From a virus, in IMG/VR virus record IMGVR_UViG_3300032236_000464, positions 1 through 37,168 of that record: a stretch of DNA of 37,168 bases; one strand, given 5' to 3'. Positions 1-22,503 of the stretch are shown piece by piece (the stretch's first letter is position 1; the number at the start of each line of letters is the position of its first letter). Position numbers and translations under genes: made by a program. Under the pieces are notes generated by a model, which ran no database searches, was not told the DNA's origin, and saw nothing but the letters and a program-made list of their open reading frames with translations.

Positions 1-56
1 CCAATCTTGTGCAAAAGGGGTTGCCAGAAGGGGGGTGTTGTGTATAAACTACAAAT

Positions 57-527
57 ATGAACAAACTTCCTGTGGAACTCCACCTTGTGCATGGCACAAA
101 ACCAGAGCATGACCCGGTTGCATTGCCAGCCAATGTAAAAAAGAGAATCCCTGAAGCAGAGTGGATGACCAATCCCCTGTCATGGAATCGATCAACCTTT
201 GTGGCTGAAACTGCCGACTATCTTTTCGATGTTTATGGGATCGGCTCAAATCAGGACAAGCATACTTTGGCTATGTTGGCAGATCAGATAGATTTGTATA
301 TCGAGTGCGGCAAGCAAATTGACCCTGCAAATATTGTGGTGTCCACAAATGATGGAAAGACACTTGCACCAAACCCAGCCATATCAATTCGGAACAATGC
401 CTTGAAGCTGGCGATACAATTAATGAATGAATTAGGGCTAACCCCTAGAGGTAGATTGAATAAGACAGAAACAAATTTGGATGATGATTCCGCTGTATCC
501 AGATTTTTAAAAGGACCAAAAGGATAA
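57..527 (+). CDS. terS: Terminase small subunit, P27 family
   Basis: This 156-residue protein resembles P27-type small terminases, which bind the packaging start site and load DNA onto the large terminase. Supporting features are the N-terminal K-L-P-x-E-L-H-x-x-H-G-T segment and the C-terminal L-G-L-T-P-x-x-R block (about residues 124-132), both typical of the family. It is followed 1 base later by the large terminase and is preceded, if the genome is joined end to end, by an HNH nuclease, the usual order in HK97-like cos phages. No good Shine-Dalgarno sequence sits directly before the ATG; a purine run lies about 20 bases upstream. The start is kept because the family-typical N-terminus begins there. 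Confidence 0.88.
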   Translation: MNKLPVELHLVHGTKPEHDPVALPANVKKRIPEAEWMTNPLSWNRSTFVAETADYLFDVYGIGSNQDKHTLAMLADQIDLYIECGKQIDPANIVVSTNDGKTLAPNPAISIRNNALKLAIQLMNELGLTPRGRLNKTETNLDDDSAVSRFLKGPKG

Positions 528-528
528 G

Positions 529-2196
529 ATGAATTACCTAGATGGCATCCGGTATGCCAATCAGGTTGCCAAAGGTGAGATTGAAGTTTGCAGAAATGTG
601 CGGCTTGCCTGTCAGCGCTTCCTGAACCAATATGAAAACAAAGAGTGGGAATGGGAATTTGACCCAGACTATCCCAATCATGTCCTTGGATTTTCTTCCC
701 TACTAAAGCATACAAAAGGACACCAAGCCGGGCAGTCGGTAACCCTTGAGCCATTCCAGATTTTCTTTATTTGTGCCATCTATGGATTTAGGGCAAAGAA
801 GGATCATAGCCGCCGAATGGTTACTGATGTCATTTTGTATATTCCTAGAAAAGCTGGTAAGTCCACACTAACTGCGATCCTTGCACTTTATGAATTGGCT
901 TGTGGCGAAGCTGGCGCTGAAGTATTTACCCTAGCAACAAATCGAGAGCAAGCATCCATTGTTTTTGATGCCGCCAAAGGATTCATAGAATCTGGACCAA
1001 AAGAAATTGCCAGCTTGTTTAGTGTCAGCAAATACCAAATAGGCAAGTTTGGCGATAGTCAGTCAATGTTCAAAGCGCTTAGTCGCGACACCAAAAAGAC
1101 AGGCGATGGTAAGAATCCATCCTGTTGCATAGTCGATGAAGCGGCGCAAATTGTAGATAGAAATGCAATTGAGGTTTTGCACTCTGGTATGGTTGCCCGG
1201 CAAAATCCTTTGAGAATTTATATCACTACAGCCAGCTTTACCAAGGACACCAAGTTTTATGAAGATATGTCCATGTATGAATCCATGCTTAATGGCGAAG
1301 CAACCGATAACCCCAGATGGTTTGGTTTGCTCTATGCGCTAGATCCACAGGATGATTGGCGAGATCCTAAGACTTGGGCAAAAGCCAACCCTATGCATGG
1401 CATTAGTATTTTTGAGGATGCTATTGCACAAAGGGCAGAAGAAGCCAAAAACAAGCCAGCCGCCCTAAATGAGTTTCTTTGCAAAACCCTAAATATCTAT
1501 GTCAGCGCCCAGACAGCATGGGTAGATAGAAACCATTGGGATAAAGCCGAATGTATAATTTCACAGGATCGGGGCGAACCAGAAGCGACATTTATTGGAT
1601 TCGACTTAGCGGCTACTCGCGACTTAAATGCAGTTTGCACACTAAAGCGCTATGGTGAATTAGATTATGAAGCAAGCTGGAAATTCTTTTTGCCTGAAGC
1701 TGGATATGAGTTAATTCCAAAGCATTATCAGGATATATTCAGGGTTGCTGTAAATACAGGCATCCTGAAATTAACCGAAGGCAATGTAATGGATGATAGG
1801 GAAATATCCGATTACATTAAGATGGAGTGCGAAAAATACAATGTCAAAGAAGTTGGATATGATGCCTATAATGCGGCTTCTTTAGTTGCGCGACTTTATG
1901 ATGCCGGAATCCCAGTTAAAAAGGTTGGACAGGGCATGGCGGTATTATCGAACCCTAGTAAGTATGTGGAAAAGTTAATACTGAATCAGCAAATCAAGCA
2001 TGATGGCAATCCATTTGTAGGATGGCAATTAGGCAACTGTGAAGTATATGAAGATGTAAATGGAAATATCAAAGTTCGCAAGAATGAAGCTGATAAAGCG
2101 GCAAAGGTTGATGGAATAATTGCATTAATTATTGCGGCGCATTGCAGTTTAGATAATCCTTTTGTTTCAAACTCCTTTGGATTCAGAAGTTTCTGA
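529..2196 (+). CDS. terL: Terminase large subunit
   Basis: The 555-residue protein is the packaging ATPase and nuclease (Terminase_1 type). The Walker A motif P-R-K-A-G-K-S is at residues 106-112 and a Walker B strand ending V-D-E-A-A is near 202-206. The C-terminal RNase H-like nuclease shows three acidic positions: F-D-L-A-A near 358, V-G-Y-D-A near 445, and K-V-D-G-I near 527. Its length is normal for the family. It follows terS by one base and precedes the portal, so packaging and portal proteins are co-expressed. Confidence 0.95.
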   Translation: MNYLDGIRYANQVAKGEIEVCRNVRLACQRFLNQYENKEWEWEFDPDYPNHVLGFSSLLKHTKGHQAGQSVTLEPFQIFFICAIYGFRAKKDHSRRMVTDVILYIPRKAGKSTLTAILALYELACGEAGAEVFTLATNREQASIVFDAAKGFIESGPKEIASLFSVSKYQIGKFGDSQSMFKALSRDTKKTGDGKNPSCCIVDEAAQIVDRNAIEVLHSGMVARQNPLRIYITTASFTKDTKFYEDMSMYESMLNGEATDNPRWFGLLYALDPQDDWRDPKTWAKANPMHGISIFEDAIAQRAEEAKNKPAALNEFLCKTLNIYVSAQTAWVDRNHWDKAECIISQDRGEPEATFIGFDLAATRDLNAVCTLKRYGELDYEASWKFFLPEAGYELIPKHYQDIFRVAVNTGILKLTEGNVMDDREISDYIKMECEKYNVKEVGYDAYNAASLVARLYDAGIPVKKVGQGMAVLSNPSKYVEKLILNQQIKHDGNPFVGWQLGNCEVYEDVNGNIKVRKNEADKAAKVDGIIALIIAAHCSLDNPFVSNSFGFRSF

Positions 2197-2235
2197 TATA
2201 AAATATAGGAAAATCGGAAGAAATCGAGGAATAAT

Positions 2236-3678
2236 ATGGGTGTTTTAGATATTTTCAGCAAGAAAAGTAATGTTCAAAAGGAAAATAACACCCTATTTGG
2301 ACAGACCCAATTAGGTAACCAGATTGTTCGCCAAGCCCAAGATGGTAAGGGTGGCGCTAATTTCCAGCTTCTTTATGTAACTACTTCATCCCAAACCAAT
2401 GCTGGTCGCATTGTGGATATGTCTGTTCTTACTCGGAACAGCACCATTATGTCCTGCGTAGGTGTTATTGCTAGAGCATTGGCGCAATGTAGCATTTCTG
2501 TAGTATCCAAAGATGAAAGTGGAGTTTTTGTAGATGCCACTCAATCCACAAAGGTTGGTAGCCGGGATAAAGCAAAAGCCAAACAAATCGTATCGCTTTT
2601 GCAAGAACCAAACAATTTCCAGAGCCAATATGAGTTCTGGTATCAATGGACAATGTGGTATTTGCTATCTGGCGAAACCTTTACTTTGCTATTCCGTAAA
2701 GATCAAAAAGATGCAATGCAAACCCCAATTGAACTCTATAACCTAGATTCAACCCTAATTACAACCCAAATGAACCCTGCTAGATATCCTACTTACAGGC
2801 TATCTACACCTTCTTATGGCTTTAACCGCGATGAACCTTTAGATTCTCATCAAGTTATCCATATTTCTGAAGCGGCATGGCAAGGTTCTGCTGGTTTCAA
2901 CAAAGGTATTTTGGCAACCGAATTAGTAGCGCTGGATCAGGACATCGATCTATATGCAAACTATGTAATGCAAAATGGTGCTAAACCATCTGGTATTTTC
3001 AGCACAACTCAGGTAATTCCTGATGCTAAATACAAAGAAGTAGCGCAAAGGCTAAAAGAAGCATGGTCAAGCATGACAGGAAGCCGCCCTACAGACCTAT
3101 CTAAGCCCGGTCAAGGTATGTTGCTAGATCAAGGCATGACCTACAACCCTGTGCAGATGCTAACCCTGCAAGATGCCGATTGTGCAAGATTAAAAGAGCA
3201 AACCACTAAGCGCATCTGTGCATTGTTTGGTGTTCCACCACAAATGCTTGGATTGGATGTAGGCAAGTTTAATAACACCCAGACATTATTGGATGAGTTC
3301 TACAAAACCACTATGTATCCTATGATTATTGCTATTGAGCAAAAATTCAAAATGGGATTATTGAAAGGTTATCCAAATCTAGCTATCCGCTTTGATACCA
3401 AAGATTTCTTGAAGGGCGCGGCATTAGATCAAATGAACTTTGTTAATGCTGGTGTTGCTGGTGGCATTATGACCCCTAATGAAGCTAGAGAATATCTGAA
3501 TATGCCTAATGTTGAAGGCGGCGATGAATTATTGGCTGTAAATACAAAAGCAATCACTTCTACTAATGTTCCAGTAGGACAAAAAACAGCCAAAGTAGAA
3601 CCATTACCCGGCAGTAGTCCACAAGATACTGGCGGCGGTGGCGGCAATCAAACTAAGAAAATGAATATAGGAAAATAA
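2236..3678 (+). CDS. Portal protein, HK97 family
   Basis: The 480-residue protein fits the HK97-type portal (Phage_portal) that forms the dodecameric DNA channel at the capsid vertex. Recognisable segments are the N-terminal helix-rich part with S-x-V-L-x-x-C-V-x-x-I-A-R-A, the middle Y-W-x-W-T-like region, and the C-terminal I-C-x-L-F-G-V-P-P-x-M-L-G block (near residues 330-345), a portal hallmark. The C-terminus ends in a Gly/Gln/Lys-rich tail that is probably disordered. A GAGGA ribosome binding site lies before the ATG. The gene stands between the large terminase and the prohead protease. Confidence 0.93.
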   Translation: MGVLDIFSKKSNVQKENNTLFGQTQLGNQIVRQAQDGKGGANFQLLYVTTSSQTNAGRIVDMSVLTRNSTIMSCVGVIARALAQCSISVVSKDESGVFVDATQSTKVGSRDKAKAKQIVSLLQEPNNFQSQYEFWYQWTMWYLLSGETFTLLFRKDQKDAMQTPIELYNLDSTLITTQMNPARYPTYRLSTPSYGFNRDEPLDSHQVIHISEAAWQGSAGFNKGILATELVALDQDIDLYANYVMQNGAKPSGIFSTTQVIPDAKYKEVAQRLKEAWSSMTGSRPTDLSKPGQGMLLDQGMTYNPVQMLTLQDADCARLKEQTTKRICALFGVPPQMLGLDVGKFNNTQTLLDEFYKTTMYPMIIAIEQKFKMGLLKGYPNLAIRFDTKDFLKGAALDQMNFVNAGVAGGIMTPNEAREYLNMPNVEGGDELLAVNTKAITSTNVPVGQKTAKVEPLPGSSPQDTGGGGGNQTKKMNIGK

Positions 3679-3681
3679 AAA

Positions 3682-3900
3682 ATGGAAAAGATTAATAAAG
3701 TTCTTCAGCTTTTTGGTTATCAGTTACAGAAAAATAATGTTAAACTACCAGTAAAATCTGTAAAATCCCCTAAAATACAAGATAATAATCAATCTATTAA
3801 GAATGGGATTATCAATGAATCAGAACCTAAGCCTACTTTGCGAAGCAAAACTAAGCCTAAACCAATCCTCAAAAGACAAGTTACCAAGCGGCAAGATTGA
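3682..3900 (+). CDS. Small basic protein overlapping the protease start
   Basis: This 72-residue open frame begins 3 bases after the portal stop, with AGGAAAA a few bases before its ATG. It is lysine-rich and low in complexity toward its C-terminus, and is not recognised as any family. Its last 86 bases overlap, in another frame, the N-terminus of the prohead protease. The good ribosome binding site favours real translation; the overlap and lack of recognisable fold argue for caution. Alternatives are a leader that couples portal and protease translation, or the remnant of a longer protease N-terminus. Confidence 0.45.
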   Translation: MEKINKVLQLFGYQLQKNNVKLPVKSVKSPKIQDNNQSIKNGIINESEPKPTLRSKTKPKPILKRQVTKRQD

Positions 3901-4615
3901 AGCCAGAGTAACTTCTTGGGGCGCTAGAGAAGGCGCTGATGGTCGCCGCTTTAATTATCAGCCTGAAGGCTTCATGGAATGGGCTAATGAGTTTGCCGCA
4001 TCTGGCAAACCGCTTCCTATGTTCTTGAACCACAATGATATGGGTATGCCTGTAGGTCAATGGACAGAATTTAACTTTGACAAAAAAGGTATGACTGCAT
4101 CTGGCGAGTTGTTTATGAATACAACCGCTGGCTCTGATCTTTATGAAGTATTAAAAAATTCACCTGATCTTTTTGGTGGTGTTTCTGTTGGCGCTTATGC
4201 TGATGAAGCACAAATGGTTGATGAAGCTGGCAACCCAGTAGCCGAAGATGATATGAATGGCGAAGAATATTTCCAAATTACTAAAGGTGGTTTGCGCGAA
4301 GTATCTGTTGTGATGTATCCAAATAATCCGGCGGCAGAAATTCAAAAGCTGGAATACTTCACAGCCGAAGGTGCGCCCAATCCCCGAAATATCGAAAAAG
4401 CCTTGCGCGATGCAGGACTTTCCCGAAAAGATGCGACCACCGCATCTTCAATCCTCAAAAAACTACTCGAACAGCGCGATGTTGTAGAGCAAGTGGTTGA
4501 GGTAGCCCCTACTCAGAGTGAGCCTGAAGCGGTGGTCGAAAATGATGCTGATGCAATTCTCAAAGCAATTGAAGAAAGAGAATTATTGAAGCAATTATCT
4601 AATCGTATTAAATAA
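3815..4615 (+). CDS. Prohead maturation protease, HK97 gp4-like (S78/U35)
   Basis: This serine protease processes the capsid protein N-terminal scaffold domain during head maturation. From the ATG at 3815 it has 266 residues, with the catalytic histidine in L-N-H-N-D (H73), the nucleophile serine in G-G-V-S-V-G (S124), and the later V-S-V-V-M-Y-P-N-N-P-A-A segment typical of this family. The C-terminal third is charged and Gln/Glu-rich, as in proteases fused to a scaffold-like tail. An upstream in-frame ATG at 3803 is possible; 3815 was chosen because GGGA lies six bases before it. It stands between portal and capsid genes as expected. Confidence 0.9.
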   Translation: MNQNLSLLCEAKLSLNQSSKDKLPSGKIEARVTSWGAREGADGRRFNYQPEGFMEWANEFAASGKPLPMFLNHNDMGMPVGQWTEFNFDKKGMTASGELFMNTTAGSDLYEVLKNSPDLFGGVSVGAYADEAQMVDEAGNPVAEDDMNGEEYFQITKGGLREVSVVMYPNNPAAEIQKLEYFTAEGAPNPRNIEKALRDAGLSRKDATTASSILKKLLEQRDVVEQVVEVAPTQSEPEAVVENDADAILKAIEERELLKQLSNRIK

Positions 4616-4626
4616 AGGAAAAAATC

Positions 4627-5985
4627 ATGTCTGAAAAGATTATTGAAAAACTTGATTTGATCGAAGCCGCTAATGTAGCTAAGATTGAAGAAGTTAAAGC
4701 TGAAGCTGTAGCCGCTGTTGAAGCCGCTAAAGCAGAAATGACAGAAAAAGTAGTTGCTTTGGAAACTAAGATTTCTGCTATTCAAGCACCAGAAGTTATG
4801 CGCCAACCAGCTAAATCTGTTAAGCAAGATGTAAACCGCAAGGTTAAAGAGCAGTTAGCTAAGTTTGTTAAAAAAGGTTCAATGAGCAAAGAGTTTGAAA
4901 TTTTTGCTGATGAATCCGAATATTCTGCATACTTGCAAGAAGATGGTTCACAGATCGGTAACCCAGCAGGCTATGGTGGTGGTTACAATGTGGGTGGTCG
5001 CACAGCCTATGATCCTGTATTCCACAAATTGCGCTTGATGAACCCATTGCGCGGTGTTTCTCGCAATGTAACAACTGATGGCTCTGTTTACCAGTTCCGC
5101 GCTAAGACAGGCAATGCTGGTGCTCAATTCGGTTATGCAATCCAAAACAACGGCGCGCCAACAACTGAAAATACAGTTATCTGGCAAACAGTTCTGCAAG
5201 ATATGAACTGCCAATTCCCAATCAGAACAGCGGCACTCGATGATATCGATGGTTTGGAATCAAATGTAGTGGATGATATGTTGCTCGAATTTAGCCAATT
5301 AGAAGGTTTGGCTATGATGCAGAACAACAACCAAGCATCCCCAACTGGCAATCCTACTGGCGGTTCAAATGGTATTATCGGTTTGGATCAGTATGCAGGC
5401 GCTAATGGTTCTTATACAGGCGGCACAATCTCTACAGCGGCTTTCGGTTCATCCGGCACAGCTTCTACAGATGGCTTGCACAGCATTGCAACTTATGACC
5501 AGCTTACCACCAATGGTAATACTCCCGGTGCAAACAATGTAACTTTTGATGATGTTATCAACTTCTTACATTTCTTGCCACAGGAATACTGGACACCAGA
5601 TGCAAAGATTATCATTAGCCCATTCTTCTTGGCACAAATTCGTGGCTTGAAGGATACTAATGGCACTCCAATTTTTGATCGTATGACACCATTAATTACT
5701 GATGGTATCGTAGGTCAAATTGCTGGCTTTGATGTTGTAGTTAATAAGTATGCTGATGCACCTTATGAAACTTCTGGCAACACTCATGCAAACTTGTATC
5801 CAATGTGGTTCGGTCAATGGTCAAGATTCCACACAATCGTGGATCGCTTGAACATGGTATTGCGCCGCTATGACCAGACTTTACCGGGCTATATCACCTT
5901 CTTTGGTGAGAAGCGCTTGGCAACTTCTGTAGTAGATCCATTTGCCGCAATCCGCTATCGTTCAACAGCGACAGCAACAGCGTAA
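4627..5985 (+). CDS. Major capsid protein 1, HK97 fold with delta domain
   Basis: The 452-residue protein is a classic HK97-type major capsid precursor. Residues 1-55 form a Glu/Ala/Lys-rich coiled coil (delta or scaffold domain), followed by a linker and then the capsid core from about residue 110, with V-G-G-R at 122-125. The core includes a D-D-M-L-L-E-F helix and the C-terminal G-Y-I-T-F-F-G-E-K-R block. Cleavage by the adjacent protease probably removes roughly the first 85-110 residues (inferred). AAAGGAAAAA before the start fits high expression. A strong terminator follows directly. The next gene is a clear paralogue. Confidence 0.93.
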   Translation: MSEKIIEKLDLIEAANVAKIEEVKAEAVAAVEAAKAEMTEKVVALETKISAIQAPEVMRQPAKSVKQDVNRKVKEQLAKFVKKGSMSKEFEIFADESEYSAYLQEDGSQIGNPAGYGGGYNVGGRTAYDPVFHKLRLMNPLRGVSRNVTTDGSVYQFRAKTGNAGAQFGYAIQNNGAPTTENTVIWQTVLQDMNCQFPIRTAALDDIDGLESNVVDDMLLEFSQLEGLAMMQNNNQASPTGNPTGGSNGIIGLDQYAGANGSYTGGTISTAAFGSSGTASTDGLHSIATYDQLTTNGNTPGANNVTFDDVINFLHFLPQEYWTPDAKIIISPFFLAQIRGLKDTNGTPIFDRMTPLITDGIVGQIAGFDVVVNKYADAPYETSGNTHANLYPMWFGQWSRFHTIVDRLNMVLRRYDQTLPGYITFFGEKRLATSVVDPFAAIRYRSTATATA

Positions 5986-5991
5986 TAAAGA

Positions 5992-6026
5992 TGGGGGGTC
6001 AAAAGCCCCCCACTTTTAAATTTTTT
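5992..6026 (+). terminator. Rho-independent terminator between the two capsid genes
   Basis: A perfect 7-bp stem (TGGGGGG at 5992-5998, CCCCCCA at 6006-6012) with a 7-base loop is followed by C-TTTT-AAA-TTTTTT. It lies just after the first capsid gene and before the second. As no other strong hairpin of this kind was seen in the structural operon, it probably acts as a partial terminator that lowers expression of downstream genes relative to the first capsid protein, or stabilises the upstream mRNA 3' end. Confidence 0.85.
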
Positions 6027-6042
6027 AATATTTGGAAATAAA

Positions 6043-7092
6043 ATGGCTAATCTAATTCTCGAAGCAGTCCAAAAAGCCTTTAAAAAAGGCGAAGCGGAAG
6101 TAAATTTAAAGGAAGCATCTGCGCTTACTGGCTCTGGCTCTGGAGTTGGTGGTCGTGTAATTTATGATGATGCATTTGCATCTTTGCGCCAAAACAATCC
6201 TATTCGTAATGCTGGGGCGCGAGTAATTCAGACTATTGGCTCAGATGAAGCCTTTGTAGTCAAAACCGGTAATATTACCAATGTCCAACAAGGTGGCACT
6301 ATCAATCCTTGGGGATACCCAATCAATAGTAACAATGCCAATGGTGCATCTGGTATTGCTACTTCTTACTGGCAATTGCCTGTTCGCGCTGTTAATGCTG
6401 TAGTGCCTGTTCGTAATGCAGTAATGGATGATATCAATGCAATTGGCGATGCTTTAGTAAGCGACATCATGCTTGAGTTTGCACAGCAAGAAGCCTTGTC
6501 TATGATGCTCAATAATGACCAAGCAGGATCTACCACTTACAACTATGGCGCTACTCAAGGTTTGCGCGGTTTAAATAGCTATCCCGGCTCTACATCTGCC
6601 GCCGCTTTTGGCTCTAATGGTCCAGCAATGACCAATGGCAGACATACTGTTTTACAAGTAGCGCAAGAATCTGCTACTGCTGTTTCTTACAATGACTTAG
6701 CTAATTTGGCTGGCGCATTGCCCTCACAATATTGGACAGATCCAACTGTTTGCTGGATGATGCACCCAACCACAATTAAGAATTTGCGCGAATTAGTAAC
6801 TTCTTCTTCTGGTATTCCTTATTTCCTAGAAGTAGGTGATGAGGATGGCGGTTCAGTAGTTTATATGTTCGGTTTCCCAGTATGCGCCAACCCTTATATG
6901 TCATTGGCTGGCTCTGGCAACTATCCAGTTTACTTGGCGGCATGGGATCGCTTTGTAACTGTTGCAGACAATGAGTTAATGAGCATTAAGGCTTTTGAGC
7001 AAACTCAACCGGGCTTCACCACTTTATTCTGTGAAAAGCGAGTAGTTTCTACTATTCGCGATGTATTTGCTGGTGTTAGATTGGTAGGCTAA
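6043..7092 (+). CDS. Major capsid protein 2, paralogue without delta domain
   Basis: The 349-residue protein aligns by eye with the core of major capsid protein 1: V-G-G-R at 35-38 (122-125 in copy 1), N-P-I-R-N against N-P-L-R-G, an M-D-D-I-N helix against L-D-D-I-D, M-L-E-F-A-Q-Q-E-A against L-L-E-F-S-Q-L-E-G, and the C-terminal Q-P-G-F-T-T-L-F-C-E-K-R block. It lacks the coiled-coil delta domain, so it looks like an already mature capsid subunit. Roles could include a specialised vertex, a minor capsid subunit in a mixed shell, or a decoration-like function; sequence alone does not decide. It has its own GGAAATAAA ribosome binding region and follows a terminator. Confidence 0.88.
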   Translation: MANLILEAVQKAFKKGEAEVNLKEASALTGSGSGVGGRVIYDDAFASLRQNNPIRNAGARVIQTIGSDEAFVVKTGNITNVQQGGTINPWGYPINSNNANGASGIATSYWQLPVRAVNAVVPVRNAVMDDINAIGDALVSDIMLEFAQQEALSMMLNNDQAGSTTYNYGATQGLRGLNSYPGSTSAAAFGSNGPAMTNGRHTVLQVAQESATAVSYNDLANLAGALPSQYWTDPTVCWMMHPTTIKNLRELVTSSSGIPYFLEVGDEDGGSVVYMFGFPVCANPYMSLAGSGNYPVYLAAWDRFVTVADNELMSIKAFEQTQPGFTTLFCEKRVVSTIRDVFAGVRLVG

Positions 7093-7093
7093 T

Positions 7094-7753
7094 ATGCCAT
7101 TAGATAGTTACACAAATGGTCCTTATTTAGGGACTACTAGGAATCCTTTTAGCTATGAAAAGGTTGAGCAGTTAAGCCGAGATACCACAACTTCTTGGCT
7201 TAGCCTTGACCAAATCTTGCAACAGCTAAACTTGTTTCAAGATGATAGCCAAGCAGACTATCTGTTTGGGCTTGAAGTAGCCACTCGCATGGCGATTGAG
7301 GACTATCTTGGTATGTCCATATTCCCGATTAAATATCGGTGCTACTATGGTGCTACAAATGGAATGTCAGGCACTCAGCAATGCTTTGATCTGCCAGAAG
7401 TAACCAATGGCATTGGAAATACTACAATTAATGAAGTGGCTTACTATACATCTGGCAATACTCCAGTTTATACAATCATTGATCCTACAGCTTATTTTTA
7501 TGATCCAACAGGCAACAAAATTGTAGTAAACAGCATCCCAAATGAAATAAGCCAAGTAATGACTAACCCTGTAGTGGTTACCTATACTACAGCGGCTAAT
7601 CCTTTGGCGGCTTATCCTAATATCCAGCAGGCTGGTTTATTGCTTTTAACCCATTTGTATAACAACCGCAGTAATACTTTCAATGGCAAGCTAGATGAGA
7701 TTCCATTTGGTGTTGCACAGCTTCTTAGACCTTACAAACCTTTGGTGATGTAA
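7094..7753 (+). CDS. Head-tail connector protein, gp6-like
   Basis: This 219-residue protein has the N-terminal helical layout of HK97 gp6/SPP1 gp15-type adaptors: S-L-D-Q-I-L-Q-Q-L-N followed by an E-V-A-T-R-M-A-I-E-D-Y-L-G helix (residues about 35-75). These proteins form a ring under the portal. The C-terminal part, with V-V-T-Y-T-T-A and a helix ending in A-Q-L-L-R-P-Y, also fits. It begins two bases after the second capsid gene and its TAA overlaps the ATG of the next gene. Confidence 0.82.
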   Translation: MPLDSYTNGPYLGTTRNPFSYEKVEQLSRDTTTSWLSLDQILQQLNLFQDDSQADYLFGLEVATRMAIEDYLGMSIFPIKYRCYYGATNGMSGTQQCFDLPEVTNGIGNTTINEVAYYTSGNTPVYTIIDPTAYFYDPTGNKIVVNSIPNEISQVMTNPVVVTYTTAANPLAAYPNIQQAGLLLLTHLYNNRSNTFNGKLDEIPFGVAQLLRPYKPLVM

Positions 7754-8097
7754 TGGCTATTGCGCGCTATGAAAATGTGGTGGTAAATAATGTAACCAAT
7801 TCTGTCGATGATATTGGTCAATACACTACTACTATCACCCCTTGGTTTAATACTAGGGCTAGAGTAGCGGATGTGCATAATGCCTTGCAAATAACTGCAA
7901 ATGAGAGGGTTTACACAGATTTAGTGAAACTTACTGTAAATTACACCCCATATACAAGGCAAATGGTAGATGCTCAACAGCTTTATTCCATTACTTATCG
8001 CAATCAAGATTGGCGCATTACCGATTGTTATGAATCGAATGATCGCATGAATGTTACATTCCTGTGCTATAGAAATGATCCGGTAGTCCCAGTATGA
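7753..8097 (+). CDS. Head closure / head-tail joining protein
   Basis: At 114 residues this beta-rich protein matches Phage_H_T_join / SPP1 gp16-type stoppers in size, position and pattern (R-V-A-D-V, V-K-L-T-V-N-Y, then I-T-Y-R-N-Q-D-W-R-I near residues 80-90 and a terminal beta strand). Such proteins close the head after packaging. It overlaps the previous stop by one base and the next start by four, placing it in a tightly coupled connector block. Confidence 0.75.
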   Translation: MAIARYENVVVNNVTNSVDDIGQYTTTITPWFNTRARVADVHNALQITANERVYTDLVKLTVNYTPYTRQMVDAQQLYSITYRNQDWRITDCYESNDRMNVTFLCYRNDPVVPV

Positions 8098-8507
8098 GCC
8101 AGAATAATGTTGTGCAGTATGCACAGGCAATCCAATACCAGTTATCTAGTATTGTTAATCCTGTGCCTGTTTATGCCAATTTCAACCGCAATTTTGCTTC
8201 TGAGCCTAAGTTTGTGGCTTGGCAATTAAGAAATGTCCACCAGCCTGTATATACTGGTGTAAACCAGAATAATAAAGGCATTGATCGCCCAGTAGTTCAA
8301 ATGAATGTATTTGCCCAGAATATGCAGGATGCTTTTGGAATAGCAAATACCATTATTCAGGCTTTACATGGATATAATGGGCAATTCGGTGGCATGGCTG
8401 GCTTTTATATTGCAAAAGCCGATGTAGTTTGGTTATATAATACTTATGATAATACTGTAGGGTTGCATCAAATAACAATGGATTGCACCTTGGATATTCC
8501 AACCTAA
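8094..8507 (+). CDS. Tail terminator / tail completion protein, DUF3168-like
   Basis: The 137-residue protein lies between the head-closure and tail tube genes. Its pattern fits tail completion proteins of the DUF3168/SPP1 gp17 type: an N-terminal helix ending in L-S-S-I-V, a central V-V-Q-M-N-V-F-A strand followed by a helix with A-N-T-I-I-Q-A-L, and a terminal strand with M-D-C-T-L-D-I. Family assignment is from pattern and position. It begins inside the last codons of the head-closure gene. Confidence 0.68.
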   Translation: MSQNNVVQYAQAIQYQLSSIVNPVPVYANFNRNFASEPKFVAWQLRNVHQPVYTGVNQNNKGIDRPVVQMNVFAQNMQDAFGIANTIIQALHGYNGQFGGMAGFYIAKADVVWLYNTYDNTVGLHQITMDCTLDIPT

Positions 8508-8546
8508 TAAGATAAAATTAATTTAATTATTTTTTAAGGAATTAAA

Positions 8547-9068
8547 ATGGCTATCCCAAATCAAGTTTTACCCGGATTTTCGGCTTCCCTATGGTGTCAG
8601 ACTACTGCTACTCCTACTCCATTAACTGTATCCCAGTTATCTACATGGGTAGGCGAAGTGGGCGATATTGTTGGTGTTTCTGCTGGTGGAACTGGCACTT
8701 CTGGTGAACAGTTAAATGTTGAAGCTATCCCAGCTTTCGGTCAAGATGATGCTTCTGCTTCATTCATGGTTGCTGGTAAGCGCCAATCAGATCAGATCCC
8801 TACACAATCAAAGCCAACTTCTTTGACAATTACAGCCGCTTGGAATCCTAGCGATGCTGGCTTGTTATTGATGCGCGGCGATGCTTACAGCGGAATCATT
8901 GATCGAACTTTCGTAGTTGCGGCTGTAGATGGAACAAATACTGTTGCTTATGCTTTCAATGGTCGTGTATCTGAGTTTAAGATTGATGCTCAACCCGGCG
9001 CTGAAGCTAAGTGTATATTTACAATTCATCCTCGCGGCAATCAATATGGTTGGTCAGACAACGATTAA
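8547..9068 (+). CDS. Major tail tube protein
   Basis: This 173-residue protein is the likely tail tube subunit. It has a beta-rich composition with M-V-A-G-K-R and S-L-T-I-T-A-A-W-N-P segments and a late A-Y-A-F-N-G-R-V-S-E-F strand pair, all frequent in siphovirus tube proteins. It lies after the tail terminator and before chaperones and tape measure. TTTTTTAAGGAATTAAA before the ATG gives a strong ribosome binding site, as expected of an abundant structural protein. The AT-rich 39-base gap before it could hold regulatory signals, but none is clear. Confidence 0.85.
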   Translation: MAIPNQVLPGFSASLWCQTTATPTPLTVSQLSTWVGEVGDIVGVSAGGTGTSGEQLNVEAIPAFGQDDASASFMVAGKRQSDQIPTQSKPTSLTITAAWNPSDAGLLLMRGDAYSGIIDRTFVVAAVDGTNTVAYAFNGRVSEFKIDAQPGAEAKCIFTIHPRGNQYGWSDND

Positions 9069-9071
9069 TAT

Positions 9072-9311
9072 ATGACAGATACAAGAATAGAAAACAGCAC
9101 AGACCTACTAAGTTACCTATTAAGCCAAGCCAGTTCTGGAACAAAGAATTGGTTTGGTTTTGCTCAACAGCGAATAACAGGAATTTATTTGGCGCATGAG
9201 ATTGCCAAAAATCATGCTGATAAACTTTCCCCTGATGAAATTGCTGATTATGTTATTAAACTAAATAATTCCATATATCAAAAATTAATCAAGGGTGATG
9301 GAAATGGCTGA
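9072..9311 (+). CDS. Small protein between tail tube and gp10-like gene
   Basis: The 79-residue protein is not recognised. It looks helical, with an N-terminal amphipathic stretch and a central A-H-E-I-A-K-N-H helix. It starts 3 bases after the tail tube stop and overlaps the start of the gp10-like gene, so it belongs to the structural operon; a minor tail or assembly role is inferred from position only. Confidence 0.65.
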   Translation: MTDTRIENSTDLLSYLLSQASSGTKNWFGFAQQRITGIYLAHEIAKNHADKLSPDEIADYVIKLNNSIYQKLIKGDGNG

Positions 9312-9825
9312 TGTAATATCTATTCAATTTGAGGGAGTTTTAGAATTCACTCAAATGCTGGATCAGATAAAAAATGATTTCAGCGAGAAAGATTCCAAAA
9401 AGATTTTGAACAATGCTGTAAAGCTGGCTATGAAACCAGTTTTAAGCAAAGCACAGTCGCTTGTGCCTGTCGATACTGGCGCACTTAGAGCATCCCTTAG
9501 AATTGAAGCCAGAAAGCCTACAAGCCGCGATAAGCGGTCAATCTATGTCAATCCTACTGATGTAGTCATAGGCACAGTTACAACCGCGCCCGGAAGTGTT
9601 TTAAAGAAAAAGACTTTTGTCAATCAGCGCACAGGGCAAAAAGAAACAGGCATTGCCAGCGATGCCAGAGCAGTAGCCAATGAGTTTGGAACAGCAAAAA
9701 TGGCAGGCAAGCCATTTATGCGCCCAGCAATGGAAACTAGCACTCAACCAGTTTTAAATTCTTTAGCAGAATCCTTAAAAACAGCACTAGATAAATATCA
9801 AGCAAGACAAGCCAAGAAAGGTTAG
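9304..9825 (+). CDS. HK97 gp10-like tail/connector protein
   Basis: The protein carries the HK97-gp10_like signature: V-P-V-D-T-G-A-L-R-A-S-L around residues 55-66 and, later, A-N-E-F-G-T-A-K-M-A-G-K-P-F-M-R-P-A. This family acts at the head-tail or tail-completion stage. The frame is open from a GTG at 9295, but the ATG at 9304 is preferred because AAGGG lies 8 bases before it. It overlaps the end of the preceding small gene by 8 bases and is followed 2 bases later by the tail assembly chaperone. Confidence 0.85.
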   Translation: MADVISIQFEGVLEFTQMLDQIKNDFSEKDSKKILNNAVKLAMKPVLSKAQSLVPVDTGALRASLRIEARKPTSRDKRSIYVNPTDVVIGTVTTAPGSVLKKKTFVNQRTGQKETGIASDARAVANEFGTAKMAGKPFMRPAMETSTQPVLNSLAESLKTALDKYQARQAKKG

Positions 9826-9827
9826 AA

Positions 9828-10316
9828 ATGAATCAGTTTGCACAGGCATTAGGCAGTAAGTTTATAGAACAAAAAGAAGCAATCCGAATCAGATCATTTG
9901 AGTTTGCAGGGCATACTTTTAAAGTTAAAGTGCCATTAACTTCAGAGTTCGAGTTAATCCAAAAAGGTATGGATAATGTCGATGAAGTTATTGTTAATAA
10001 ATATTATCAGGAATTATCTAAAGAATTAATAGATAATAAAGATAAAGCATCAAAAGATAATGATATTGATTTTCAAGAAAATGATATTATTGTCAAAGGT
10101 AAATCATTAAGGGATGCCGCTAAAAATAAAGCATTAACAGAAAAGCGCATTACTACTTTGTTTAAATTCCTTGTTCCAGAAGAAAAGGATTTTGACATGG
10201 ATACCATCACCTATGACATGATCGAAGAATTGTTCCCATTCTCAATCCAGATGGAATTGATTGAAGCAATTGGCGATACCATATCCCCTAATTACAAAGA
10301 AACTAGGGGAAAGTAA
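9828..10316 (+). CDS. Tail assembly chaperone, G-like
   Basis: This 162-residue acidic/lysine-rich protein sits directly upstream of the tape measure block, where lambda gpG-like chaperones lie. Its last codons are AGG GGA AAG TAA, so the heptanucleotide G GGA AAG, the lambda G/GT slip sequence, lies exactly before the stop codon. Normal termination gives this protein; a -1 slip gives a longer G-T-like fusion. No catalytic motif is visible. The central region is charged and probably flexible. Confidence 0.85.
   Translation: MNQFAQALGSKFIEQKEAIRIRSFEFAGHTFKVKVPLTSEFELIQKGMDNVDEVIVNKYYQELSKELIDNKDKASKDNDIDFQENDIIVKGKSLRDAAKNKALTEKRITTLFKFLVPEEKDFDMDTITYDMIEELFPFSIQMELIEAIGDTISPNYKETRGK
10307..10313 (+). 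promoter_or_regulatory. -1 ribosomal frameshift slip site GGGAAAG
   Basis: The sequence G GGA AAG is in phase with the chaperone reading frame and is followed at once by TAA. It matches the X XXY YYZ rule and is identical to the lambda G/GT slip site. The downstream stop codon in the zero frame may promote slipping. No strong downstream pseudoknot was found by eye. Confidence 0.85.
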
Positions 10317-10660
10317 TTGGGTCAGTTCGCAGACAAGTAAAAGCCTATTTGACTGCTCATGGAACTGATCCAGATAGTATTGATGAGCAGACCTTTACTG
10401 ATATATGCATTATGTTCCATGATGGCATTATTGGTAATCTTGGAATCATAGAAACTTTAGGGGTTTTAACCGCTGGGCATTTTAATATGACCTTGCCAAA
10501 AGGCAAATCCCCATTTAAACTACAGGATATTATTCCGCAGGCATATAATTACTTATACCCGCCATTAACTACAGAACAAAAACAAGAACAAGTCAGTAAT
10601 AGTTTGCTTGCATTTGCAATGATGCATCCGGGCGCACCAAGTAAGTTAAAAGGAAAGTAG
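10307..10660 (+). CDS. Frameshift extension of the tail chaperone, T-like
   Basis: This open frame is -1 relative to the chaperone gene and starts right after a TAG at 10304. After a -1 slip at GGGAAAG (10307-10313), translation would continue with V-I-G-S-V-R-R-Q and add 115 residues, ending at 10660, for a 277-residue fusion. It has no good independent start (the first usable codon is a TTG at 10349). The extension resembles T-like domains that bind the tape measure and recruit tube subunits. It ends 3 bases before the tape measure gene. Confidence 0.85.
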   Translation, partial: GKVIGSVRRQVKAYLTAHGTDPDSIDEQTFTDICIMFHDGIIGNLGIIETLGVLTAGHFNMTLPKGKSPFKLQDIIPQAYNYLYPPLTTEQKQEQVSNSLLAFAMMHPGAPSKLKGK

Positions 10661-10663
10661 AAA

Positions 10664-12574
10664 ATGGCGCAGAATGTAGCGAGATTAGGGGTAGTTCTAG
10701 GAATAGATATAGCCGAATTTACCAAAGGGTTAAATGAAGCTAAATCTAAATTAAAAGAATTTACTAGTGTTGCCGCCGATGTTGCCGCCGCTGGTATAGC
10801 CGCTATGACCTACAAAGCATTGGAATTTTCTGATGCTATGTCCGACTTGTCCGATGCCACAGGAATTGGCATTGCTAAGATTCTACAGATTGGCGATGCG
10901 CTGGAAATGTCTGGCGGTCATGCTGATGATGCTGGAAAAGTCCTTGTTAAGTTTTCCGATAATATTGATAAAGCCGCCCAAGGATCTAAACCCCTACAAG
11001 ATGCATTTGCCAGAGTAGGTGTAACACTTCAAGATTTAAGCAAGCTATCTACTCAAGATATATTCCAAAAATCAGTAGATGGAATGTCCAAGCTGGGCGA
11101 TAAAGCTAGTCAAACTGGTGCTAGTCTGGCATTGCTTGGCAAAGGCTTTAGGGGTGTTGATGTAGAGGGTTTTAACAACCTAGTTAAAGAAGGCACACAA
11201 GAATTTGATCGCTATGCTGATGCTGTGGCTAATGCCGCTGATCTGCATGATAAGCTGGCTAAGAAAGCCGCCATTACAGGATTAATTTTTACTGAAAAAG
11301 TAATGCCTGTTCTTAATGCTATGTTCGATACTATTAATGCCAAAGGCGGTATGGCTGAAGATGTATTTGAAGCAGTAAGAAAAGTATTGATGGGACTTTG
11401 GGGCGCGGCTGTATTGGTTGGCAAGGCTTTTGAGTATGTCGGTATTGTCAAAGATAGAGTATTTGGCAATATTGATACTTCTCAAATGGAAACCAAGCTA
11501 AAAAAATTAGATGATGATGCAAAAGCCTTTGTTCAAAAATGGCGACAAATAGATGCTGGGGTTTATGGTGTAAAAGCTAAAGCAGGCGAAGCTGATGGCA
11601 ATCGCACAGTAACTCCCGGCAAAGATCCAGCCGCCGAAAGAATGGCGCAAATGCTGGCAGTAGCAAAATTAGTATCTGTTGAATATCAGCGCCAGATGTC
11701 CACTATGCTTCAACAGCAAGCCATTAGAAATCAGATGGCTGGCATGACTAAAGATGAAGCCAGAGTTCAAGCCGCAGTAAATCAAGTGCTAGATTCCACC
11801 AGTAAAAAGCTGGATGAAATTGCTAAAAAGAAAGAAGAAGCTGTAGCGCATAGCACAGGCACTAAGCAAGAAATTGAAAAAGTAACTCAAGAATTAGATA
11901 GGCAAGCGCAAGAAGTTTCTAGGCTTGGCGATATCTATGCTGATATGGCTAGAAAAAATGAAGAATATGCCATTAAGACACAGCGCACCTTTACTTATGG
12001 CTGGGATAAAGCATTTGCACAGTTTAAAGAAGATGCTTTCAATTATTCAAAATTGGCTGAAGATATGTTCAACAGTATCACAGGCAATATGACAAAAGCC
12101 TTAGATACTTTTATTGATACTGGTAAGTTTAACTTTGCTGATTTTACTAGAAGCATTATTAATGATCTTCTTAAAATTCAAGCCAGAATGTTAATGATGC
12201 AAGCCATTAGCGGTGCATCAAGCTGGATGTCTGGAATATTTGGTGGTGGCGGTAGTTCTGTAGATTCTATTAGCACTTCTCAATGGATGTCTGGCGCTTT
12301 TGCTAGTGGTGGCGAACCCCCAGTAGGTATGCCAGCTTTGGTTGGTGAGAAAGGACCAGAACTGTTTATTCCAAGAACTGCCGGAACAATTATCCCAAAT
12401 AATCAATTGGCACAATCAATGGGTGGTGGACAATCGATTGTTTACAATGGACCATATATTCAAAATATGTCTGCAATTGATACTCAATCTGCTACACAAT
12501 TCTTATCCAGAAACCAAAATGCTGTATGGGCGGCTAATCAATCAGCACAAAGGGGACTGCCACAAAGCAGATAA
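10664..12574 (+). CDS. Tail tape measure protein
   Basis: The 636-residue protein is the tail length ruler. It has an N-terminal region with hydrophobic Ala/Gly helices, a hydrophobic stretch near residues 240-260, a long central coiled-coil region (about 350-460), and a C-terminal lambda-type tape measure segment (K-F-N-F-A-D-F-T-R-S-I-I-N-D-L near 490-505), then Gly-rich and beta parts with E-K-G-P-E-L-F-I-P. With the usual 1.5 angstrom per residue rule, it predicts a short tail of about 95 nm (inference). It follows the frameshift chaperones. Confidence 0.92.
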   Translation: MAQNVARLGVVLGIDIAEFTKGLNEAKSKLKEFTSVAADVAAAGIAAMTYKALEFSDAMSDLSDATGIGIAKILQIGDALEMSGGHADDAGKVLVKFSDNIDKAAQGSKPLQDAFARVGVTLQDLSKLSTQDIFQKSVDGMSKLGDKASQTGASLALLGKGFRGVDVEGFNNLVKEGTQEFDRYADAVANAADLHDKLAKKAAITGLIFTEKVMPVLNAMFDTINAKGGMAEDVFEAVRKVLMGLWGAAVLVGKAFEYVGIVKDRVFGNIDTSQMETKLKKLDDDAKAFVQKWRQIDAGVYGVKAKAGEADGNRTVTPGKDPAAERMAQMLAVAKLVSVEYQRQMSTMLQQQAIRNQMAGMTKDEARVQAAVNQVLDSTSKKLDEIAKKKEEAVAHSTGTKQEIEKVTQELDRQAQEVSRLGDIYADMARKNEEYAIKTQRTFTYGWDKAFAQFKEDAFNYSKLAEDMFNSITGNMTKALDTFIDTGKFNFADFTRSIINDLLKIQARMLMMQAISGASSWMSGIFGGGGSSVDSISTSQWMSGAFASGGEPPVGMPALVGEKGPELFIPRTAGTIIPNNQLAQSMGGGQSIVYNGPYIQNMSAIDTQSATQFLSRNQNAVWAANQSAQRGLPQSR

Positions 12575-19854: not shown

Positions 19855-22503
19855 ATGGGAATAAAAGTTAATGTAACCGATGAAAATAATGTATCGGTAG
19901 CAGTAGTCCCTGTTGCGCGGCAAGTGGTAAAAGTCGCAACACCACCTAATCAAACAATTAGCATTAATCGCGGCTTGTATGGTCCACAAGGGACTTCAGG
20001 CTATTCTGGTTATTCTGGACAATCAGGGTTTTCCGGGTATTCTGGATCATCTGGCTATATTGGGCGCGATGGCGCTTCAGGATATTCTGGATACTCTGGA
20101 TATAGTGGTTCTGGCATATCAGGCTATTCTGGTTACTCTGGAAGTGGCACAAGCGGATATAGCGGTTATAGCGGCTTCTCTGGACAGTCTGGGGCATCTA
20201 CATCAGGATATAGTGGATACAGCGGTATAAGCGGTTTTAGTGGCTTTAGCGGTCAAGATGGCGCATCTGGAATTTCTGGATTCTCTGGCTACAGCGGTAG
20301 TGGTGTAAGCGGCTATTCTGGTTATTCAGGCATCAGCGGCTTTTCTGGCATTTCAGGATACAGCGGCGCAATCGGTCAATCTGGCACAAGTGGCTATAGT
20401 GGATTTTCTGGCGCTGTAGGGCAATCTGGATTAAGTGGATTCTCTGGTATTTCTGGTTACTCTGGCGCATCTGGCATTTCTGGTTTTAGTGGCATATCAG
20501 GTTATTCAGGCGCAGTAGGTCAATCAGGTATTTCTGGATATTCTGGCTTTAGCGGCGAAAGCGGCGCATCTGGCATATCTGGTTACAGCGGATTTTCTGG
20601 ATATAGCGGTCAGCAAGGCGCAAATATTAATATCAAAGGTTCTGTAGCAACCCCAGCAGATTTGCCATTAATAGGTAATTTACCTAATGATGCTTATATT
20701 GTGGAATCCAATGGTGATTTATATATTTGGAATGGCACAAATTGGTTTGATGCAGGACATATTGTTGGACCTACTGGCGCATCTGGTATTAGCGGTTTCT
20801 CAGGTTACAGCGGCGATAGCGGCATTTCTGGTTATTCTGGATTCTCTGGAATTTCAGGCTATAGTGGCGCAGTCGGTCAATCTGGCATTAGCGGGTATTC
20901 AGGATTTAGTGGCGCTGTAGGCGAAAGCGGAATTTCTGGATACTCAGGATTTAGTGGATATTCTGGTGAAGTAGGCGCAAGTGGATTTAGTGGCATCAGC
21001 GGTTATAGCGGTGCTGTAGGTCAATCTGGAATATCAGGTTATTCTGGATTCTCAGGATTGGATGGACAAAGTGGCTTCTCAGGTTACAGCGGTATTTCTG
21101 GCTTTAGCGGTTGGAGTGGTATATCTGGTTATTCTGGTTCTGGTGTTTCGGGCTACTCAGGATATTCAGGGAACAGCGGCATATCTGGTTTTAGTGGCTA
21201 TTCTGGCATTTCTGGTTATAGTGGTTTTTCAGGCTATTCTGGTAGCGGAACTTCTGGCTATTCAGGTTATTCTGGAATTAGTGGCTATAGCGGAATTAGC
21301 GGATTTAGCGGATATTCTGGCAAATCAGGGCTTGGTGGTGCAGTTGGTGCATGGGGCGCTTTTTGGGATACCACAACTCAAACAACAACTGCAAATACTC
21401 CAACAGTAATTACTTTAAATTCTTCTGATACAAATAACAATGGAGTGTCTGTTGTTAGTAGATCACAGATAACTTTTGCTAATGCTGGAACTTATAGCTT
21501 AACTTTTTCTTTGCAATTTACAAACCACAGCACAGCTTTAGGTAATACACAAGTTTGGTTAAGAAAAAATGGGACAGATATTCCTAGTAGTAATTCTCAT
21601 TATGATGTCCCAGACAAACAAGGTAGTGCATTTTCATCTGAAATATTGACTGTAAATTTTGCATTTAATGTCAATGCAAATGATTATGTAGAACTATATT
21701 GGCAAACAACTAATACTTCTGTTTATTTAGAAACTTTAGCGGCTGGTGCGAGTTATCCTGAAACACCATCAGTAATCTTTACTGCAACTCAAGTGATGTT
21801 TACTCAATCTGGATATAGCGGAACAAGTGGCTATTCTGGATATAGCGGCATTAGCGGCTTCTCAGGCATCAGCGGATATAGCGGATCTGGTGTATCTGGA
21901 TATTCTGGCTATAGCGGATCTGGTGTAAGTGGATATAGTGGATACTCTGGTGCGGTTGGAACTTCAGGATATTCTGGATATAGTGGCGCAGTAGGCGCAT
22001 CTGGAATATCAGGATATAGCGGCTATTCTGGAATAAATGGCGCATCTGGCTATTCTGGATATTCAGGCGCGGTTGGCGCTACTGGCGCATCCGGCACAAG
22101 CGGATATAGCGGTTATAGCGGTGCGGTTGGTGCAACAGGCACAAGTGGATATTCTGGTTATTCAGGCTATTCTGGGTCTGGCATTTCTGGATACTCAGGT
22201 TATTCTGGATCAGGTGTATCTGGTTATAGCGGTTACTCTGGCGCTGTTGGAACTTCTGGCTATAGTGGTTATAGTGGATATAGTGGCTCTGCTATTGGCA
22301 TGGTTTATGATTCATTTACTGCAACTGCCAGCCAAACTACTTTCACTTCATCTGCATCTTATACAGCAAATAAAATTGAAGTATTTGCAAATGGAGTTAA
22401 GATGGTAAATGGCACAGATGTTACTGTTTCAGGTGGAACTTCTGTAGTATTTGCTACTGGACTTGCTGTTAGCACAAAGGTAGATTTAGTATATCCGCAT
22501 TAA
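19855..22503 (+). CDS. Collagen-like tail fibre rich in Gly-Tyr-Ser triplets
   Basis: The 882-residue protein has a short beta-rich N-terminal anchor (1-42), then three long G-x-S repeat blocks (about 43-252, 305-490, 652-812; about 180 triplets), mostly G-Y-S, G-F-S and G-I-S with short G-A-V-G and G-x-G-x-S interruptions. A compact module with Y-I-V-E-S-N-G-D-L-Y-I-W-N-G-T lies at 252-305. A C1q/TNF-like jelly-roll (W-G-A-F-W-D-T-T-T-Q start) lies at about 495-651, and a terminal F-x-x-T-A-S-Q-T-T-F-T module at 813-882. Proline is almost absent from the triplets. It is likely a flexible trimeric fibre. Confidence 0.85.
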   Translation: MGIKVNVTDENNVSVAVVPVARQVVKVATPPNQTISINRGLYGPQGTSGYSGYSGQSGFSGYSGSSGYIGRDGASGYSGYSGYSGSGISGYSGYSGSGTSGYSGYSGFSGQSGASTSGYSGYSGISGFSGFSGQDGASGISGFSGYSGSGVSGYSGYSGISGFSGISGYSGAIGQSGTSGYSGFSGAVGQSGLSGFSGISGYSGASGISGFSGISGYSGAVGQSGISGYSGFSGESGASGISGYSGFSGYSGQQGANINIKGSVATPADLPLIGNLPNDAYIVESNGDLYIWNGTNWFDAGHIVGPTGASGISGFSGYSGDSGISGYSGFSGISGYSGAVGQSGISGYSGFSGAVGESGISGYSGFSGYSGEVGASGFSGISGYSGAVGQSGISGYSGFSGLDGQSGFSGYSGISGFSGWSGISGYSGSGVSGYSGYSGNSGISGFSGYSGISGYSGFSGYSGSGTSGYSGYSGISGYSGISGFSGYSGKSGLGGAVGAWGAFWDTTTQTTTANTPTVITLNSSDTNNNGVSVVSRSQITFANAGTYSLTFSLQFTNHSTALGNTQVWLRKNGTDIPSSNSHYDVPDKQGSAFSSEILTVNFAFNVNANDYVELYWQTTNTSVYLETLAAGASYPETPSVIFTATQVMFTQSGYSGTSGYSGYSGISGFSGISGYSGSGVSGYSGYSGSGVSGYSGYSGAVGTSGYSGYSGAVGASGISGYSGYSGINGASGYSGYSGAVGATGASGTSGYSGYSGAVGATGTSGYSGYSGYSGSGISGYSGYSGSGVSGYSGYSGAVGTSGYSGYSGYSGSAIGMVYDSFTATASQTTFTSSASYTANKIEVFANGVKMVNGTDVTVSGGTSVVFATGLAVSTKVDLVYPH
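19984..20613 (+). repeat. Nine-base-period coding repeats, collagen block 1
   Basis: The DNA encodes near-continuous Gly-x-Ser triplets in which the codon usage is varied (GGA/GGC/GGT and TCT/TCA/AGC/AGT alternate), so the protein repeat is better kept than the DNA repeat. This suggests selection for the peptide and against recombination between long identical stretches. Similar blocks lie at about 20770-21325 and 21810-22290. Confidence 0.75.
20770..21325 (+). repeat. Coding repeats, collagen block 2
   Basis: This second Gly-x-Ser block follows the W-N-G-T module and ends in K-S-G-L-G-G-A before the C1q-like domain. It has the same G-A-V-G-Q-S-G interruptions as block 1, so it may derive from block duplication. 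Confidence 0.7.
21810..22290 (+). repeat. Coding repeats, collagen block 3
   Basis: This third block follows the C1q-like domain and differs by many G-A-V-G and G-A-T-G inserts. It leads into the terminal beta module. Confidence 0.7.

Follow-up and report, generated by a model that had tools for sequence, protein, structure and literature searches.

Paired HK97-type major capsid genes in a freshwater phage and hundreds of its relatives

In the well-studied HK97-like phages, a single major capsid protein (MCP) switches between hexamer and pentamer positions, and how its scaffold domain controls the geometry of the head is still an open question. The T=7 shell of HK97 is assembled from 415 MCPs. 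In HK97 gp5 and the D3 MCP, the scaffold (delta) domain consists of a coiled coil joined by a linker to a helix-turn-strand P-domain-associated element (PDAR; D3 residues 81-113); the PDAR attaches to the P domain and is proposed, from the D3 prohead structure, to act as a trimeric clamp between capsomers (PMC12749128). The arrangement in which a paralogue serves as vertex protein is best known from phage T4, where gp24 forms pentamers and carries a propeptide of 10 residues vs 65 in gp23, and where mutations in the A domain of gp23 allow it to replace gp24 (PMC9958956). In the second case, the Ccm protein encoded by SaPIbov5 occupies the pentamers and the capsid protein (CP) of phage phi12 the hexamers (PMC8569155). 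These two proteins, gp24 and Ccm, are the phage capsid paralogues with known particle location, and both are found at pentamers. Outside phages, the family 2B encapsulin of Streptomyces lydicus also has a shell in which two HK97-fold paralogues are combined (PMC12407261). For HK97-type phages, the literature searched contained no description of such a capsid pair, with subscription papers (probably including the genome paper of Methylophilaceae phage P19250A) outside its scope.

The window analyzed here, the whole 37,168-nucleotide stretch of the IMG/VR virus record IMGVR_UViG_3300032236_000464, derives from a freshwater phage, and hundreds of its relatives carry the same two-capsid pair. The head genes open the record, in the order terminase, portal, protease, MCP1, MCP2, and adaptor (Table 1). 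The order portal, protease, MCP, terminator is shared with HK97, and a delta domain with coiled coil and PDAR, as in HK97 and D3, is predicted at low confidence for the first capsid protein, whereas HK97 and D3 use their single MCP for hexamers and pentamers alike and have no second copy.

Table 1. Features of the capsid locus, in positions of the window.
Feature	Position	Strand	Evidence
Large terminase	529-2196		Profile matches
Portal	2236-3678		Profile matches
Prohead protease, S78 family	3803-4615	+	PF04586, 2.4e-10; phrog_80 head maturation protease, 5e-15
Shine-Dalgarno sequence (AAGGA) of MCP1	4615-4619	+	Anti-SD duplex -5.6 kcal/mol
MCP1, major capsid protein, N-terminal scaffold (delta) domain predicted, 452 aa	4627-5985	+	
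MCP1 residues 2-51, predicted long scaffold helix (coiled-coil tower)	4630-4779	+	AF2/DSSP, pLDDT about 40-60
MCP1 residues 65-104, PDAR/spoke-like scaffold part	4819-4938	+	H65-83, H96-104; HK97/D3 prohead I alignment
Intrinsic-terminator-like hairpin, then CTTTTAAATTTTTT	5992-6012	+	
Weak Shine-Dalgarno sequence (TGGA) of MCP2	6033-6036	+	-3.3 kcal/mol
MCP2, predicted HK97-fold paralogue without coiled-coil scaffold, 349 aa	6043-7092	+	
MCP2 residues 2-23, PDAR-like helix-turn-strand before junction motif KEASALTGSGSGVGGR	6046-6111	+	AF2 H2-15, E17-21
Head-tail adaptor (Ad1-like), gene after MCP2	7094-7753	+	phrog_442, 8.8e-10

Both capsid proteins match the Phage_capsid family (PF05065; 5e-21 for MCP1 and 2.4e-17 for MCP2) and TIGR01554 (4.8e-27 and 2.8e-17, respectively) above the curated cut-offs. 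They align with each other at 34% identity over 329 columns (BLASTP, E=4e-51), and a profile-profile comparison joins them over 320 columns (E=8.1e-89); by these sequence comparisons MCP1 and MCP2 are true paralogues, in agreement with a sequence-only reading of this DNA that had described a pair sharing the HK97 core. When the record was searched with MCP2, two capsid copies were recovered, namely MCP1 and MCP2. Structures were predicted with AF2 from alignments of 94 and 84 relatives for the two capsid proteins, giving a pLDDT of 74 and pTM of 0.72 for MCP2, and a pLDDT of 66 and pTM of 0.64 for MCP1. In Foldseek, the MCP2 and MCP1 models match HK97-fold capsids (E=2e-17 and 1e-16, respectively), the best being that of the Rhodobacter GTA (structural Z of 22.8 for MCP2 and 21.2 for MCP1), which likewise ranks first among the PDB sequence-profile matches for each protein. 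By prediction, then, both proteins adopt the HK97 fold, including MCP2, for which the sequence-only reading had allowed that modeling might indicate otherwise. The best structural matches of both models are the capsids of the Rhodobacter GTA and the cf-PICI EcCI2 (Z 20-23), although no paired paralogue was seen for these among the PDB matches. T4 gp24 is absent among the structural matches listed, an absence that carries no information on the fold. A preference for pentamers was sought in the structural matches and rejected: the MCP2 model fits best on HK97 chain G, which we take to be the pentamer chain, and the MCP1 model does likewise (in several entries), so the models do not favor a pentamer role of MCP2 over one of MCP1.

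The two copies differ ahead of a junction motif that they have in common, the glutamate of which is invariant in the alignments (E105 in MCP1, E24 in MCP2). In MCP1, this motif is preceded by ∼104 residues, modeled by AF2 with low confidence as a helix (residues 2-51), a linker, a second helix (65-83), and a short helix (96-104), which is consistent with the earlier claim that a long N-terminal domain belongs to copy 1 only. In MCP2, there are ∼23 residues ahead of the motif, modeled as a helix (2-15) and a strand (17-21), and the protein has no stretch matching the long N-terminal helix of MCP1. The structural alignment begins with MCP2 residue 2 at D3 residue 81 and with MCP2 residue 3 at HK97 residue 76 (9osb/8fqk); MCP1 aligns with the D3 and HK97 prohead I structures from residues 66 and 68 on. 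In the TIGR01554 register, MCP2 residue 11 corresponds to position 88 and HK97 residue 106 to position 105, and the match extends back to position 71 in the MCP2 of two relatives (L057 and L064). The HK97-type scaffold is cut at 103/104, and the profile register and structural alignment together place the start of MCP2 about 25 residues upstream of that cut, and not at the cleavage point itself as had been proposed. On the strength of the models, MCP2 likely keeps the PDAR, with the coiled coil and linker missing. An ungapped profile scan did not detect the MCP2 N-terminal peptide in the MCP1 scaffold domain (124 of 300 permuted profiles equaled its score), so the identity of the PDAR rests on the structural alignment (pLDDT about 55-65) and on the profile register in a few members.

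The N-terminal region and core of MCP2 vary in some relatives. Four related contigs (L057, L063, L064, and L070) encode an MCP2 with an extra N-terminal domain of ∼95 residues, which directly precedes the PDAR-like helix, in the place taken by the coiled coil in MCP1; this domain, which lies at 4686-4980 in L057, matches phrog_2859 (unknown function; 9e-24). In L150 (4839-6104), the E-loop region of MCP2 contains an insert of ∼75 residues with matches to phrog_21413 (unknown function) and phrog_38233 (tail fibre).

In two scans of IMG/VR, the candidate relatives of MCP1 and of MCP2 each numbered over 500, and further loci were obtained from single-protein queries and from four MAG contigs, with duplicates removed. 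MCP2 adjoins MCP1 in 225 of the 229 distinct loci having the end of MCP1, the other four ending within 600 nt, and MCP2 is present in every one of the 221 distinct loci that extend at least 600 nt past MCP1; the family search for the same pair finds it throughout. Every apparent MCP1-only genome was traced to a contig ending early or to an HNH-like gene lying in between, and the pair is ancient and obligatory. The next recognized gene after MCP2 is the head-tail adaptor in 137 of 143 loci, and the remaining six end first. A read-through fusion of the two proteins was also considered and rejected: the genes share a frame in the window, but two TAA codons intervene, and the frame is common to only 77 of 181 pairs among the relatives.

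Several individual loci depart from the common layout. In L099, an HNH-like endonuclease gene (6345-6720) is apparently inserted between MCP1 and MCP2, which resumes afterwards, and the spacer of L101 is similar to this one. In L048 (2-1052), MCP1 is split over two ORFs, possibly through a sequencing error or an insertion. The four MAG contigs with the pair (L085-L088) were binned as beta-, alpha-, and gammaproteobacteria and Nitrosotalea; they look like phage contigs inside the bins, and these host names are not to be trusted.

We analyzed the phylogeny of 40 MCP1/MCP2 pairs together with three single outgroup capsids (HK97 and two others). MCP1 and MCP2 form a clade apart from the outgroups (support 0.99), within which the 40 MCP2 sequences form their own clade (0.99); the MCP1 sequences also group together, although with support (0.31) low enough to leave room for a root inside MCP1. 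The dN/dS values of about 0.10-0.20 for both proteins point to purifying selection on both copies. Across identical phage pairs, mean core identity is 73% for MCP1 vs 62.5% for MCP2, and MCP1 is by this comparison the more constrained copy. Divergence between the copies relative to that within each copy is greatest in the A domain (ratio of 0.50 vs 0.57-0.78 elsewhere), although the fast change of A domains may also have unrelated causes. A single cultured relative, P19250A, was found; it has been described as a siphovirus (PMC8163748), and among annotated phages it alone was seen to have the pair. It has the same gene order, including both capsid genes, but its MCP1 and MCP2 are 59% and 50% identical to those of the window, and the current annotation lists its MCP2 as hypothetical. 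At 1e-5, tblastn with MCP1 and MCP2 recovered nothing from Venkman, which has been reported as related to P19250A.

The terminator that had been noticed between the two genes corresponds to a terminator-like hairpin with a GGGGGG...CCCCCC stem and a T-rich tail, which, along with its opposite-strand mirror, provides the strongest terminator-like matches in positions 1-12000 of the window. A hairpin of this T-tailed kind occurs in 125 of 129 distinct MCP1-MCP2 spacers, vs 6% of shuffled spacers, and in 13% of control stretches inside MCP2. The stem sequence differs among relatives; RNAalifold recovered only 3 pairs from the spacers, since the alignment leaves the stems offset from one another, and hairpins were counted per sequence instead. 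The Shine-Dalgarno sequence of MCP2 is weaker than that of MCP1 in 86% of 161 loci (median -3.3 vs -5.6 kcal/mol; p=2.5e-21, with relatedness uncorrected). In HK97, an annotated putative terminator directly follows gp5, so MCP1 would stand in the place of gp5, and MCP2 would be an addition downstream of the terminator. A post-capsid terminator is not specific to paired capsids, since single-capsid phages such as HK97 have one.

We consider it fairly probable, by analogy with the described paralogues, that the hexamers of a two-protein HK97-type shell consist of MCP1 and that its 11 pentameric vertices, the portal vertex excepted, consist of MCP2. MCP1 would be the abundant subunit, and its coiled-coil scaffold domain, the expected substrate of the S78 protease, would guide assembly and then be removed by that enzyme. 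An old tandem duplication would have given rise to MCP2, which would have shed both the coiled-coil tower and the linker while keeping the short PDAR, proposed to act as a clamp at local threefold sites in D3 and HK97 proheads. Its PDAR would dock with MCP1 hexamers and its A domain would pentamerise at the vertices, with internal towers under hexamers only. With a weaker ribosome site and a terminator ahead of its gene, MCP2 would stay the minor partner. Because the genome is similar in size to that of HK97 (a 39.7 kb record), about 360 MCP1 to 55 MCP2 would be expected if T=7. We infer the vertex role of MCP2 because T4 gp24 and SaPIbov5 Ccm both sit at pentamers, and MCP2 fits the pattern of those two proteins in its short propeptide, its minor expression signals, and the divergence of its A domain. 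The sequence-only reading had suggested a shell of two subunits in set ratio or a specialized role for the second, perhaps at the vertex; the invariant pair, the hairpin, the weaker Shine-Dalgarno sequence, and the gp24 and Ccm precedents make this the best supported explanation, the location and ratio themselves being drawn from comparison.

As in T4 gp23/gp24, the genes encode neighboring HK97-fold paralogues of which the second has a shorter N-terminal part, but the prolate T4 makes its scaffold proteins separately and packages a ∼171-kb headful, whereas here the predicted scaffold is fused to MCP1 in a 37 kb record. In Pfam, the T4 capsid family gave no match to MCP1 or MCP2, which match only PF05065, and the pair may work like gp23/gp24 without belonging to that family. 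For the more specific proposal, that a tower-less vertex protein, with PDAR kept and coil deleted, evolved independently of T4 in a widespread HK97-type lineage, we regard the case as close to evenly balanced. If so, T4-like vertex proteins would have had a second, independent origin, in a common freshwater phage group, and scaffold towers would be confined to hexamers, separating in nature the two functions of the delta domain. Because hexamer and pentamer positions are seemingly split over two genes, one of them coil-less, the roles of coil and PDAR would become separately testable.

The family 2B encapsulin provides the precedent for a different arrangement, in which MCP1 and MCP2 share capsomers or take irregular positions and MCP2 dilutes the coiled-coil towers. 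The S. lydicus proteins do co-assemble with variable, irregular composition (PMC12407261), but in a cellular compartment that packages no DNA, and terminase, portal, and protease genes adjoin MCP1 and MCP2, setting the pair apart from encapsulins. With the A domain, at the capsomer axis, being the region most diverged between the copies, and the pair never reduced to a single gene, we find a mixed shell unlikely.

Ccm raises the possibility that MCP2 serves a second particle class (smaller, or isometric vs prolate), since this capsid homologue alters particle shape from the pentamers; it and the phi12 CP are likewise HK97-fold homologues in one shell, from delta-domain capsid systems (PMC8569155). 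Ccm is, however, parasite-encoded and has its own 87-residue delta domain, whereas MCP2 belongs to the phage itself, has just about 24 N-terminal residues left, and neighbors MCP1 among the head genes of all 221 loci. No second genome needing another head size is known, and action at pentamers would overlap with the vertex explanation, so we hold a size or shape switch to be rather improbable. A little less credible again is a role restricted to the portal-surrounding capsomers, or to assembly initiation, rather than all vertices: the minor expression signals of MCP2 and the position of its gene immediately before the head-tail adaptor would suit this, but we found no earlier example of an HK97-fold paralogue that is limited to the portal vertex. 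The sequence itself does not strictly preclude the inverse assignment, with hexamers from MCP2 and vertices from MCP1, but it is highly improbable given the main-subunit features of MCP1, which is more conserved, bears the predicted scaffold, has the stronger ribosome site, and precedes the hairpin.

Beyond the head genes, the window encodes an 882-aa protein (19855-22503) with long runs of GYSGYSG/GISGFSG repeats of collagen-like period, which is probably a tail fibre or head fibre.
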